From: Cymbomonas tetramitiformis
Lineage: Eukaryota > Chlorophyta > Pyramimonadophyceae > Pyramimonadales > Pyramimonadaceae
Direction of reading: 5' to 3'
Assembly (NCBI GenBank): GCA_001247695.2
Contig: LGRX02035293.1
Location: 20,002 to 84,001 of the forward strand
DNA: 64,000 bases
The translations under genes were made by a program, and so were the position numbers. Positions 1-7,589 of the stretch are shown here, one piece after another; the stretch's first letter is position 1; the number at the start of each line of letters is the position of its first letter. Under the pieces are notes generated by a model. It did no database searches. It saw only the letters and a list, made by a program, of their open reading frames with translations, and was not told where the DNA came from.

Positions 1-1538
1 CGACTGATATGGAAAGTGTTCAGAAGATTCGTGCTCTTTTCCCCAAACTTATTTCGCATTTCGGTATGGATAAGGTTTGGAATATGGACGAGACAGGCTT
101 GTATTGGCGTAGGTTGCCCACCAGGAGCCTTAGGAAAAAGAAACGCTCAGGAAGAAAACTTTCAAAGGATCGAATAACAGTCAGTATTTACACTCGCGCT
201 GATGGTCAGAAGGGTAAATTGCATGTGATTGCTAGCGCCGCGAAACCTCGAGCATTTGGCCGCACCTGGAAGCCTGCAGACATCGGCGTTCATTACACGT
301 CGAACGCAAAGGCGTGGCAAAATCAGATCAGTTTCGAGGACTCTTTGCGCGAGTTTCACTTGATGAATTGTCAGGATGCGTCTCAGGAGTACATGTTGAC
401 TTGTGACAATGCCTCGTCACACAACGACGCACAGCCACTGCCGACCTGGATGCGTGAGTTAGGTGCCAAGGGGTACAAGTATAAGGGCAACTTGCTCTTA
501 GTATTTTTCGAGCCCAATGCCACAGCGAAAACACAGCCCGCTGACCAAGGCATCATCGCAGCAATGAAAGTGTATTATAGGGGCAGGCTATCGCACTTCA
601 TAGTTGCAGAGGTTCAATCTGTTCTCGACGCTGGTGCTAACGCTAGGGCTGACAAAATACGTGTCAACGTGCGGCAAGCCCTCATCTGGTTGAAGCATTC
701 ATGGGATAGCGTTTCCGAAACAACAGTCCGCAACTGCTGGATGAAAAGTGGGATCCTCCCAATTTTGGAAAGTCACGATCAGGAGCAGGAGGGAAGGTAC
801 CATATGGGACACAGGGAAAGGAAACCCACACATTACGTGGTTGGTAACACGATGTTGCCCGTGGAGTGTGAGGGTGCAATGGCGGAGCTGCAGCTGTTGA
901 TGGGTCAGATGGGCCTGGAGAGTTCGGACACGGAGACGGCAGAGGAGTTTGTGCTTGACTCGGATGAGGTTGTGATTGAGGAACAGAAGGAGGTGAGCAC
1001 GATTGTGGCAGAAGTGCTTCAAACTGAACCTGAGGAGCTTATGTCTTCTGCCGAGGAGGAGACAGAAGATCAGCGTGACAGTGGTGAAAGTGACCCTGAG
1101 TTGATAGTCCCTTCCTTGAAGCGGGCTAGGGAGATGGCCCAACAATTGGAACTATTCACCCAGGAGAATGTAAAGCAACTTGGGGTACAGTCAGCAGAGA
1201 CAGTAAGTTGGTTGTCTTGGCAACTGACAAAGATGTTGGTGTCAGATGGGGCAAGGCAAACCAAGGTGGACAACTTTTTTTCTCCAGCAGCTGCAGGTGA
1301 ACCAAGTGCTGCAGGAAGTGAGGGAAGCCCGAGGGACAGTGACTGGGAGGGGGAAGGGGTCAGTGACCTGGAGGAGGATCTGCAGGACAGCTTGGTTTCG
1401 GTGGTTCCTGAGACCCAAGACAGTGTCCCACAGTGGCCTGCAGGAGCACCACACCAGGGTGACGGTGCCAGGTTGATGGAGGAAGAGACTGAGGATCTGG
1501 TTGATTTTGATGAGGAGGATGCTGATCACATGGAATAA
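1..1538 (+). CDS. pogo/Tigger-type DDE transposase, 5' end cut by window
   Basis: The protein catalyses cut-and-paste transposition in the nucleus. The frame is open from the window edge; the first in-frame ATG is at 9, but the N-terminal helix-turn-helix DNA-binding part expected in this family is missing, so the true start lies outside. Three catalytic motifs are visible: NMDETGLYW near residue 26, TCDNASSHND near residue 130, and PNATAKTQPADQG near residue 170. These match the DDE_1 signature of Tigger/jerky/pogo proteins. The spacing between the second and third aspartates is about 45 residues, longer than usual because of a lysine/tyrosine-rich insert. The C-terminal half is strongly acidic and resembles no catalytic domain. 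It ends at TAA 1536-1538. No internal stops suggest a young or domesticated copy. No terminal inverted repeat was found downstream. Family call is secure; activity is not. Confidence 0.85.
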   Translation, partial: TDMESVQKIRALFPKLISHFGMDKVWNMDETGLYWRRLPTRSLRKKKRSGRKLSKDRITVSIYTRADGQKGKLHVIASAAKPRAFGRTWKPADIGVHYTSNAKAWQNQISFEDSLREFHLMNCQDASQEYMLTCDNASSHNDAQPLPTWMRELGAKGYKYKGNLLLVFFEPNATAKTQPADQGIIAAMKVYYRGRLSHFIVAEVQSVLDAGANARADKIRVNVRQALIWLKHSWDSVSETTVRNCWMKSGILPILESHDQEQEGRYHMGHRERKPTHYVVGNTMLPVECEGAMAELQLLMGQMGLESSDTETAEEFVLDSDEVVIEEQKEVSTIVAEVLQTEPEELMSSAEEETEDQRDSGESDPELIVPSLKRAREMAQQLELFTQENVKQLGVQSAETVSWLSWQLTKMLVSDGARQTKVDNFFSPAAAGEPSAAGSEGSPRDSDWEGEGVSDLEEDLQDSLVSVVPETQDSVPQWPAGAPHQGDGARLMEEETEDLVDFDEEDADHME

Positions 1539-2880: not shown

Positions 2881-3489
2881 ATGCACTGTACTGAGCTCGT
2901 AGCTGTAGCTCGAAGGATGTCATGGTCAGTCTCAGGCTCACGCCCCCATACTTAAGGGTGGCGAGACGGCTGGTGCTGGTGGTAGCAGTGTGGTTGCTAA
3001 TAAGGATTTGAAACTGGTGGTAGCTACCACTGTATACACGTCGGATTTCGTGGGCACTGGACGCGAGCCCTTATGCTTTAGTTTGTTGTTAAGAGACACA
3101 CCGTAGAGATTCGTAACATACTCACCGTAGAGATTCGTGGAGATTCTTGCGCGGTCTGAGTGGAGAACCATTAGGACTTCGTTCGCAACTTTTTAAAGCA
3201 TCAGGGGACACCTTTTATTTCAAAAGACAACTACTGTACAAGCTATTGGCAAGTCTTCCGAAAACTTGCATTCTCGCTTCGGTGCGTATCGTATACTGTT
3301 TTTGAGTGCACGACAAACAACCACTGAGACCATAAATGCTGGGACTAAGCTGAGCCACTCTGTCCAACCTTCTGAGTGAAACAAATGTTCGCGCATAGAT
3401 ATTTTCCACACTTTGGTTTCTTTTTTGTCCCCTCACACACGAGCGTCAAAGATGTAGACGACTGACTGAGATGGCTTTGCCTTACAGAC
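2881..3489. other. gene-free spacer upstream of the 3490 gene
   Basis: No coding sequence is supported here. It should contain the promoter and 5' leader of the following gene, but no TATA box or other element could be assigned with confidence. Confidence 0.5.
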
Positions 3490-6400
3490 ATGGCGCAGCG
3501 AGACAACGTTTTACACGGGCTGCACAGCCCCCCTTCAACGTGCGAGATAGAGTCCCTCGATTTGTATGCCAGTCTCGAGCAGAAAACGCAGCAACTAGGG
3601 TCTTCGGTGCTTAAAGCGTACTTTGAGGACGCCCATGCTCGAACTAGGGGCGCTCTTAATGGGCTATTGCCGCTGGAAGAAGATTGGGAAGGGCCACGGG
3701 AACCCTTCTTATGGGCTCTCGGAAGCGTAGCGCACTTTTACGAAACTATGGTGCTTCGTATTGTTGAGCCAACATGCCTTCCGCCTTTGCTAAAGAACCT
3801 GAGCGACGAGCAGTGCGCCGCACTCTTCGGCTCGTCCACAGCGTGTCCCGAAAGCCGCTGGGCCGAGCTGAAGACGTTGAGCGACGAACTCCCGAGTGTC
3901 TCCGACATGTTGAAGTACCTCGAGCGCACTACTGTTATGCTGGTGGAGCGTGTGAGCGGAAGAGCCGGCGCGATGCTCTCTCCTGCCGAAACCTATTTGT
4001 ACATGTATGGCGTGCTGCACGAGCACTGGAACGTGGAGCAGTTAATCCAAATTCGACAGAAACTGCGATTGCCTGCGCCACCACCATACAGGCCGGTCGG
4101 AACCGTGCCCTACAACGCTTGCGGCGAATCTTTCAGCTTTACAGCCACCGCATACGCCTCATCCCTCACCGAGGAATTCCCGATAGACGAAGCTAAAAGC
4201 GGCCAAGAGGGCCGCCCTGCTTGGGACCCGGTGTGTATTCCGGCGGGGAGCTATTTCCTCGGAGCTCGCCGAGACGCCCCCTGGGCATTCGACGCGGAGA
4301 AGTGCGGGCACACAGTGCAAGTCCCGCGCTTCGACTTGGGGCGCACCTGCGTGACGAACGAGCAGTTCGCGCGCTTCATCGAGGCGCGTGGGTACCAGCG
4401 ACGGGAGTTCTGGGACCACGAGGGCTGGAAGTGGCTCAGTGCGGCGAGTAAGATCCAGAAGCGCATCGCCCCTCTATATTGGGTGCCGCTGACGAACGAT
4501 GGGAACTCACCTCGCGCACCAGCACCGCGCAACGCCCTTTCGAGCCGCTGGGCGACGGTGCGATTCGACAAGATGGTTCCCCTCGATCCCGGTGCACCCG
4601 TCGTACACGTGTCCTGGTATGAGGCTTCCGCGTACTGCTGTTGGGCCGGGAAGCGCCTTCCCACGGAGGCCGAATGGGAAATAGCGGCGGCTACAGAGCC
4701 TCTTAACGGCGACCGCACTCGCTATGACGGCCTCGAAGGCACGAGGCTCTATCCATGGGGTGAGGACCCCCCCACCCCGGACCGCTGCAACCTTGATGCG
4801 TTCCGCGCTGGCCCTGTCGACGTGGCGGCGTTCCCAGAAACAGGGACTTCAGGCTGGGGCTGCCTGAACATGCTTGGGAACGTGTGGGAGTGGACCTCCA
4901 CAACGTTTTACCCCTATCCCGGCTTCAAGCTAGACTACCCATTCCGGGAGAACTCTGCGCCAACTTTTGGGTGTCGCAAGGTGGCGAAAGGCGGCTGCTT
5001 TCTCACCTCTGCGCCCGTCGCCCGGGTCCGGTACCGGCACTCCTTCCGGCCCGAGGACGACGCCGGGTACGCCGGCTTCCGGGCGGTCGGCTCTGGTGCG
5101 CGGACCATCCTGCTGCTGAGCAAGCTCGGGGCCGGCACTGGCAACGACACCACTGCGCAGCGCTTCGCGAACCTCTTTGAGGCCCGCGGGTTCCACGTCG
5201 TCAAGCGCAGTGCCGGGCCATTCCCGAGCTCAACTTCGAGCGCGCGGGCGGAGGTGGAAGCGATCAACCCGGCTGTAATCGTCGCTATCCACACCTTCCA
5301 CAGTGCAGCAAAGGTGGGCCCCTTCCCGTGTGAGTTGTGTTCAGCCCTGTTTCGCTATTGGGCTCAGACAGTCACCCAACACGTGTGAATTTCAACCTAA
5401 GTTTGTAAGAGAACGCTCCTGCGAGTTGGAGGTGTGGTTGGGTTCCATGTCTGACAGGCCCCTACTGCTTTTCTTTTTCCGTCTCTTTTCCTGGGGGTTG
5501 CTAGCATCCCTCGAGCATGTGTCTCTACACTTAGTAGGAACATGCACGAACACCAGTCACAGTGACATCCAGGTGCCAATATTGTGCCGTGCAACTCCCC
5601 CGGGATGCCAGTTCAAACAGTGTATCAGATATTTCTTTTCGAACATCGTGCTTGGGAGTGCAGAACGAGAACTAACGCTGACCTTAGGGCTGTACTAAGG
5701 GATCTGTTCGGTGCTTTATCTCTCTGGTTTACTCGAAAGCTGGGGTGGTGCCACAACGGGATGCGCTTCGGGGTTCACAAAATCGACTCACTGAACCAGA
5801 CACCTACCCACAATTTTCATCCGAGTGTGTGAATCTTTTGTCCTCAAACCACTTGTCACATAGTATTGTATATTCCTAGGGAAATAATACATACTCTTAA
5901 GCAACGGCACACAGGTGGCATATGATGGCTGCCCGCCACTGATCACGGTTCTCGGCGGCACCGATATGAACACCGACGTGGACCGCTCTGCCTCACATCT
6001 CTCTCGCATCCAAGAAGTGTTCCGCCGCTCCCACACCGTGGTAGCTCTCTCGGAGCCCATGCGGGCGCGCGCGGAGCTCATCATCGACAAGCTCTCCCCG
6101 CGCCCTGCCCTCGTGAATATACCACAAGGGGTCGCAATCCCTCAAGGTATTTCTCCGTGAACTCTTTCAACTCGGCAATGCTTTAGGTAAAAAGGTTCGT
6201 ACGTCAGTCAACAGTGCCCATAGGGATATGCTTTTCTGATTGGGTATTAGTGTCATTTTATCCCTGTGACCGTGAGTATCGCATAATGATAATATGCAGT
6301 GCTGAATGTATCTGTATCTGTATATGTTCACTTTATTTGTCACAAGAAACGGTTGTCGGCAATGAACGCCTCCGAGGGATCCCTGTTCCCCCCCCCAGGA

Positions 6401-7589
6401 CTCTTCTGCGATTCTTGCTCAATTGCACAACGAAAAGGGTTATCCAGGGCTCGCCACCCAGTGACTCGATCCGTCACACAAATCACACATTTGGCGAACC
6501 CTCTTGCAACACTGCCCAGCATTGAGCCCTCCGCAGCATGTCCGTGCTTGCCAAGGTCAACGCGCTCGCTTCTCTGAGCTCACTGGTGTAGGTTGATAAA
6601 GCATGTGCGGAACGATTGGATCACAGGGTGGCCACTGCCAAAGTGGGCATCCATCGAGGTCGATCAGTTGCATGCCCTACGAATACAGTTCCCTGGAGCA
6701 AAGATCTGCTTGCTGGTAGCTGGGCTTCGACCAGTGAAGGATGTGTTGTTTCTGGTCGACTACTTTGATACCCTGAGCAAGGCACAGGCTGTATCAGAAG
6801 GCTCATCCAGGGCGACAAAGTACTTTTTGGTCCTTATTGGGCCGGTTATGGAGGAAGAGTATGGGGACATGGTCAACGCACGTCTCCAGCAGAGCCCTGA
6901 TCAAGTGGCGCAGTACCTTGGCACTTTCAATAGGGACTGGACGCTACAGGTACGTATGTAAGCCAGATTTGCTGTTGACACTTGAACCTCGTTGACACTT
7001 AGATTACTAGCAACGTTGATTTGTTGATGTGAGAACATATAATATTCATTTCATGTTGCGTTTTGCGCTGTGTGGGTGTGAACGGTATCGATGACATGCA
7101 CATATTTAGGCCATGTTGAGAATATGAATGACGGTGTTGACTAAGTACGCATGAAAAGGTATCATGAGAAGATCGAGGGCACTGTAATGAGGACACGTAA
7201 ATGGTTGGGCACTGCAGGCGATGCAAGACTCAGACTGCGTGGTGAACACTTCACTCTCCGAGGGCTGTGCAGGGGCTCTGGTGGAAGCCATGGCACTCGG
7301 GGTGCCGATTCTAGCCCGTGATATACCCGGAAACCGAGCGCTGCTGGAGTCAGGCACGCATGATGTCATCTGTGATTCTGAAGAGAGTAAGGGATGTGGA
7401 GATAGCGCAGCAAGCGTTCTAAACGAGTTACTATTTGAAACTTCAGTGGACTTCCACACGAAGTTCATGAAAGTCTGCAATGATCAGAGCTTTCGTGACA
7501 AAGTTGTGGGAGCTGGGAAAATGTTGGCGTCTGCGCTAAGTACCTTGGAGAAAAATAGGTGGGACTTGGTATTACATTCTGCATTTTGA
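3490..7589 (+). CDS. EgtB/SenA-like synthase fused to GLT1D1/SenB-like glycosyltransferase, 4 exons
   Basis: Exons 3490-5313, 5915-6146, 6627-6949 and 7218-7589 join with phases 0, 1 and 0 and GT-AG borders, giving 916 residues. Residues 20-190 form a DinB-like domain with H82 and an H177-x3-N181-x-E183 motif where EgtB proteins have H-x3-H-x-E. Residues 244-535 are an FGE-sulfatase domain (VTNEQFARF, RLPTEAEWE, GNVWEW, GGCF, GFRAVG). Residues 539-916 are a GT4 glycosyltransferase: GTGNDTTAQR, GGTDMNTD, AGLRPVKD, and the E808-x7-E816 motif. In this family EgtB makes the C-S bond of ergothioneine; bacterial SenA makes the C-Se bond of selenoneine and SenB, a glycosyltransferase, makes the selenosugar donor. 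GLT1D1 is the animal relative of the C-terminal half. The fusion suggests both steps in one cytosolic protein, but the chemistry is inferred. A further 3' exon after AAATAG 7559 cannot be excluded. Confidence 0.85.

Follow-up and report, generated by a model that had tools for sequence, protein, structure and literature searches.

Structure of the fused gene

The window analysed here is the whole 64,000-nucleotide stretch of the genome of the green alga Cymbomonas tetramitiformis (GenBank assembly GCA_001247695.2, contig LGRX02035293.1, positions 20,002 to 84,001, forward strand; guanine-cytosine content 51.2%). At 3490-7589 it carries one gene in which a SenA/EgtB-like DinB-FGE module is joined to a GT4 glycosyltransferase of the GLT1D1 clade. 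Four exons with GT-AG splice borders give 916 codons with one stop only:

3490..7589, + strand: whole gene, four exons, 916 codons (from splicing and the match to a EukProt model)
3490..5313, + strand: exon 1, SenA-like DinB and FGE (residues 1 to ~536) and the first ~70 glycosyltransferase residues, with the fusion point inside
5915..6146, + strand: exon 2, glycosyltransferase, GGTD motif
6627..6949, + strand: exon 3, glycosyltransferase, AGLRPVKD motif, whose Lys is the equivalent of SenB K158
7218..7589, + strand: exon 4, C-terminal part of the glycosyltransferase, E-x7-E motif and stop

Many GT/AG combinations besides the chosen one also keep the frame open (220 in one count), so an open frame alone is little proof of the exon model. 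EukProt P0001, a separately made gene model of 906 amino acids with the same three junctions, equals residues 1-906 exactly, and its difference from the 916-codon model is confined to the last 10 residues. Furthermore, P0016 aligns to 67% of the glycosyltransferase part with 58% identity and is colinear through junctions 2 and 3. The four-exon DinB-FGE-GT4 chain put forward in a preliminary description of this DNA is thus upheld. The boundary between synthase and transferase (~residue 536) lies within a single open frame (3466-5388), and the fusion is therefore independent of the splicing choice; a fusion produced by that choice was rejected because both modules meet in this frame. These results collectively confirm that the fusion is genuine.

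Pfam models matched the protein at 168 bits for FGE-sulfatase and at 43 bits for GT4, the latter on exon 4. The Pfam DinB model (PF12867) had no match in the fusion or anywhere in its own genome (851.7 Mb in 25,745 contigs searched) at E 1e-3, although it matched in 5 of 14 control genomes, and we therefore judged it too narrow here. The DinB part was aligned by the NCBIfam SenA (279 bits) and EgtB models, and an AlphaFold model of the fusion matched EgtB, OvsA and SenA over approximately residues 32-537. This model was built from an alignment of synthase rows only (A4), so its transferase half is poor; a second model was that of P0017, an algal-type relative. A mixed alignment (A3) was dropped, since its transferase-only rows had just 10-19% identity and its conserved columns were confined to the synthase part; these rows were taken as misplaced.

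Family placement of the synthase half

The best NCBIfam match of the fusion was SenA (NF041186), with 279 bits (276 in the six-frame search), below the curated cut-off of 420. The EgtB and OvoA models gave 206 and 128 bits, below their cut-offs of 360 and 400. In the synthase tree, the fusion falls within an algal-type clade (99% by the Shimodaira-Hasegawa-like approximate likelihood ratio test, SH-aLRT) on the side of SenA and OvsA, opposite EgtB and OvoA; membership of EgtB or OvoA was rejected on both scores and tree. The split between the two sides is weak (74%), and the tree gives no firm branching order for OvsA, the two bacterial SenA groups and the algal-type clade. The earlier assignment of the N-terminal half as EgtB/SenA-like held, in that the tree groups it with bacterial SenA and OvsA through the algal-type clade. 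These results support the view that the synthase half would be a descendant of an algal-type SenA branch.

An exon-by-exon and six-frame SenA search of the same genome found no second SenA gene, the other matches being an 81-bit FGE in an AT-rich, virus-like stretch and a 32-bit fragment. Locus L087 (G000:C1:237813-238268) holds a 327-residue FGE-like frame that lies in an AT-rich stretch beside a seemingly PhoH-like frame; an endogenous viral origin is possible. A C-terminal end of the (S/G)(K/R)L type resembles the peroxisomal targeting signal type 1 (PTS1). Among the algal-type SenA relatives (P0043-P0067), 22 have an intact C-terminus, and 15 of these end in this way, vs 2/94 among P0068-P0161; the end is a strict PTS1-like signal in four of the 15, and the fusion has no such end. 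A peroxisomal location of the algal-type SenA relatives is therefore possible.

Loss of iron ligands and other active-site residues

The fusion was compared with 125 other sequences, counting at each position the rows that have a letter there. We take positions 79, 177 and 181 to be those of the iron-ligand histidines, from EgtB biochemistry and shared motifs. Position 79 is His in 118/118 comparison sequences and Ser in the fusion, and position 181 is His in 124/124 and Asn in the fusion. Two of the three iron ligands are thus lost and H177 is kept, a loss unique to the fusion among rows with a letter. Among columns conserved at 95% or above, the fusion keeps 73 of 78 and has lost H79, H181, R459, Y485 and W504. 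The Y485 column is presumably the counterpart of the catalytic Tyr377 of M. thermoresistibile EgtB, judging by a Y-x-x-Y-S motif. PMC4659905 gives the DinB iron-binding motif as H-x3-H-x-E. The positions concerned, together with those of the substrate pocket, are:

3724..3726, + strand: S79 (AGC), iron-ligand His in 118/118 others
4018..4020, + strand: H177, the sole retained iron-ligand His
4030..4032, + strand: N181 (AAC), iron-ligand His in 124/124 others
4864..4866, + strand: L459, Arg in SenA, OvsA and the algal-type clade
4942..4944, + strand: F485, Tyr in SenA, OvsA and the algal-type clade (from residue comparison)
4951..4953, + strand: N488, pocket position of OvsA M401
5038..5043, + strand: H517-S518, pocket positions of OvsA Q430/A431

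Taken together, these comparisons indicate that the canonical three-His iron site of the synthase half has been lost and that this half is most likely a pseudoenzyme.

Substrate pocket of the synthase half

According to the title of PDB 8ux5, the M401Y/Q430N/A431F variant of OvsA binds hercynine and has selenoneine-biosynthetic activity. At these three positions the fusion has N-H-S. The same set occurs in 13 of the 14 complete rows of the algal-type clade (P0064 has N-N-H, and two rows are incomplete). Bacterial SenA-type proteins have Y-N-F/Y in 24/24 rows with letters, and EgtB has Y-N-F in three of four such rows and Y-T-F in the remaining one; OvsA has M-Q-A, and OvoA F-Y-A in both rows with letters. 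Because the pocket is N-H-S and not Y-N-F or M-Q-A, neither hercynine nor histidine is an obvious substrate and selenoneine is not expected. A synthase clade with its own pocket suggests that algae may make a further selenium or sulfur compound.

The fusion shares with SenA (PDB 8ryz, 8k5i) the DinB and FGE domains and the same region of the tree, but it lacks H79, H181, R459 and Y485, has N-H-S in place of Y-N-F/Y and carries an attached transferase. Its best PDB sequence match (204 bits) is OvsA, the selenoxide synthase of ovoselenol (PDB 8u41, 8u42), which has the Arg at position 459 in common with SenA. OvsA differs from the fusion in keeping all three histidines and in its M-Q-A pocket, and is histidine-binding by the title of 8u41.

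The transferase half belongs to the GLT1D1 clade and keeps SenB residues

The transferase half scored 162 bits against NF038229 (GPMC GT4; curated cut-off 400) and 64 bits against TIGR04348 (SenB; cut-off 300). The NF038229 cut-off was reached by a Geomonas protein (L015, 480 bits) and missed by the animal protein P0019 (225) as well as by the fusion. The closest relatives are algal-type proteins, animal GLT1D1 and Desulfuromonas. A quick tree of 68 rows, with SH-aLRT support only and built after half of the rows classed as selB-linked or 'other' had been removed, paired the fusion with P0016 among algal-type and named animal GLT1D1 proteins. The forks have 94/89/88% support, and the joint fork with animal GLT1D1 (89%) is drawn open. 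An unnamed row labelled animal (P0026) was placed among YdjC-linked bacteria, so that either its label is wrong or the sequence is foreign. The halves thus fall with the SenA side and the GLT1D1 clade in their respective trees. The animal GLT1D1 and NF038229 proteins, with the former of which the transferase half groups, differ from it in being stand-alone proteins. SenB orthology was rejected, given the score and the position of SenB outside the clade.

Compared with V. paradoxus SenB, the fusion keeps the letter at 10 of 13 positions (N20, T23, H58, T85, D86, R155, V157, K158, E231 and E239) and changes R61 to H, T83 to G and H235 to G. With the roles given in PMC10891094, the letters kept include the catalytic K158 and most of those at the selenophosphate site. 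In a small control of three unrelated GT4 rows, N20, T23, H58, T85, D86, R155 and V157 differ in at least two, and K158 and both glutamates are common to most or all. V157 is no mark of SenB, because both SenB rows used have E there. The fusion differs from SenB (PDB 8jjn, 8fbx) in its separate clade and in lacking the SenB motif EGGAHV, reading EGCAGA instead. The equivalents located in the gene are:

5143..5154, + strand: N552 and T555, equivalents of SenB N20/T23
6737..6739, + strand: K723, equivalent of the catalytic SenB K158
7260..7286, + strand: E808 and E816, equivalents of SenB E231/E239

By these residues, the transferase half looks intact and functional. A literature search for 'GPMC system' found nothing, and among the titles returned for GLT1D1 with selenium terms none was on selenium biosynthesis.

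Some bacterial relatives of the transferase lie beside selenium genes

Genome contigs were scanned with the transferase alignment and a single peptide pattern, [LC][VP]AGLRPVK, and 80 loci were kept. At 25 of the 80 the transferase is the next gene after selB and is read in the same direction, and at 21 of these 25 selD is also present on the other strand. At two further loci (Ammoniphilus) selD adjoins the transferase, which brings those with a selB or selD neighbour to 27/80. A YdjC-type match stands beside the transferase at 12 loci, a weak GTPase match at one, and none of these at 40. The selB of L042 and the SelD of L044 and L065 passed NCBIfam cut-offs. In the Bacillota selB/selD loci, a GLT1D1-like glycosyltransferase thus stands unexplained among selenium genes. 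A tblastn search with seven synthase queries (E 1e-6), reaching as far as 8 kb to either side (less at some shorter loci), found SenA, EgtB or OvoA at 0/80 loci. The earlier label of this half as SenB/GLT1D1-like was therefore right as to the GLT1D1 clade, the SenB key residues and a link with selenium genes, but the protein is not SenB proper.

A PhnD-type ATP-binding cassette (ABC) transporter is nearby in most of the Bacillota loci, which include L042, L044 and L065. The ABC binding protein at L065 reaches the cut-off of the phosphate/phosphonate model but not that of the selenate model (188 bits, cut-off 250). The YdjC/ChbG-type pairing (L006-L014, L075, L079 and L080; checked with Pfam in L008 and L009) recalls the BshA/BshB pair.

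Algal relatives, selenophosphate supply and flanking sequence

In two cases, P0024/P0045 and P0025/P0050, a transferase cluster and a synthase cluster come from the same source with an identical size of the longest contig (7882 and 6876, respectively). These are two matches among 9 x 25 clusters labelled algal, and a rough simulation puts the chance of two such pairings near 0.0001. In related algal-type assemblies, synthase and transferase thus appear to be encoded by two distinct but linked genes, the synthase keeping its iron site. In O. tauri, OSTTA_12317 has an FGE domain and an incomplete glycosyltransferase domain (PF00534) according to a 2015 survey (PMC4659905), the published description on which our comparison rests; as far as the accessible part of that survey goes, it is classed as a sulfatase-modifying factor, without the reading proposed here.

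The genome of C. tetramitiformis also contains a SelD-like exon scoring 124 bits over 125 residues, just below the whole-protein cut-off of 125, and 84 bits against the 'fusion_not_SelD' family.

Upstream of the fusion gene, a frame for a DDE superfamily endonuclease (transposase) occupies window positions 3-1535, and just before the gene, at 2620-2880, TTAGTTCAATGA-type words form an AT-rich array in repeated as well as inverted copies.

Discussion

SenA transfers selenium from a selenosugar onto a histidine-type substrate. For the fusion we infer another division of labour, in which the gene encodes a selenosugar synthase carrying a SenA-derived pseudoenzyme, a reading to which we give an even chance. 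The GLT1D1-clade half would most likely use selenophosphate from a SelD-like enzyme as the acceptor for the sugar of a uridine diphosphate (UDP)-sugar, giving a 1-seleno-sugar as SenB does. The synthase half would retain the SenA-like fold and the pocket of its clade and no longer hold the canonical three-His iron; it would probably serve in ligand binding, transferase stabilisation or partner docking, not in catalysis of C-Se bond formation. The best-supported activity would thus be formation of a selenosugar and not of selenoneine. Since synthase and transferase seem to be separate linked genes with an intact synthase iron site in the algal-type lineage, the pathway is probably active there, with a product other than selenoneine. 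Several points qualify the evidence. The number of conserved columns lost is not exceptional (P0109 loses 8/73 and P0067 5/70); the HMMER alignment puts Tyr377 one residue off position 485, which makes the match of Y485 to Tyr377 less sure; and, as the 80 bacterial loci are interrelated, their linkages with selenium genes are not independent events.

The transferase half may instead use an ordinary O- or N-acceptor, like BshA, MshA or a glycan enzyme, with the link to selenium incidental. In structural comparison it matches BshA and MshA no less strongly than SenB, the YdjC-type deacetylase pairing occurs at 12/80 loci, and human GLT1D1 is reported to act on PD-L1 glycosylation (PMC7191186). 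We nevertheless regard an ordinary acceptor as unlikely, given the conserved SenB pocket residues, the selB or selD neighbours at 27/80 loci and the fusion or apparent linkage to a SenA-clade protein. Somewhat less probable still is a remodelled iron site, in which H82, H177 and H179 hold the metal and a different selenium or sulfur product is made. The fusion, like most algal-type relatives, has both H82 and H179, and the 73 of 78 conserved columns left intact show a synthase domain under constraint; however, 96/119 rows have W, F or Y in place of H82 and 82/125 have D in place of H179, and we know of no precedent for such a site.

The preliminary description suggested a eukaryotic route to selenoneine or to a related thio- or selenosugar-derived product; in the selenoneine version, both halves would be active, and the selenosugar made by one would be handed to the other. 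The parallel with SenA/SenB and the domain order, the SenA score of 279 bits and the SelD-like exon fit this idea, but the synthase half has lost two iron ligands along with a conserved Arg and the probable catalytic Tyr, and its pocket differs from the hercynine set; selenoneine as the product is not supported, and we consider this proposal very improbable. Least probable of all is that the gene is decaying or that the iron-ligand codons contain sequence errors. The residues come from one genome, the EukProt model possibly derives from the same sequence data, and the N181 codon is one base away from a His codon; against this, 916 codons are open, the great majority of conserved columns is kept and the S79 codon is more than one base change from both His codons.

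A wider proposal, which extends the selenosugar synthase reading and which we offer only tentatively and hold to be doubtful, is that the whole GLT1D1 family, including the animal and human proteins, would be selenosugar synthases that depend on selenophosphate, and that prasinophyte-type algae would combine one of them with a SenA-type synthase whose pocket is of a third class, yielding a selenium metabolite not yet described; in C. tetramitiformis the synthase would have become a non-catalytic partner domain. To our knowledge, the transferase for the selenosugars of mammalian urine has not been identified, and if the proposal is true, GLT1D1 would be a candidate for this enzyme. Selenosugars are described as urinary selenium metabolites of mammals in PMC5372522, and SenB is called the only identified selenium glycosyltransferase in PMC10891094, whose authors added two close SenB homologues. 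A different and widespread transferase clade, tied to Bacillota selB/selD and to algal-type SenA-type synthases, would give GLT1D1 a concrete function that can be tested.
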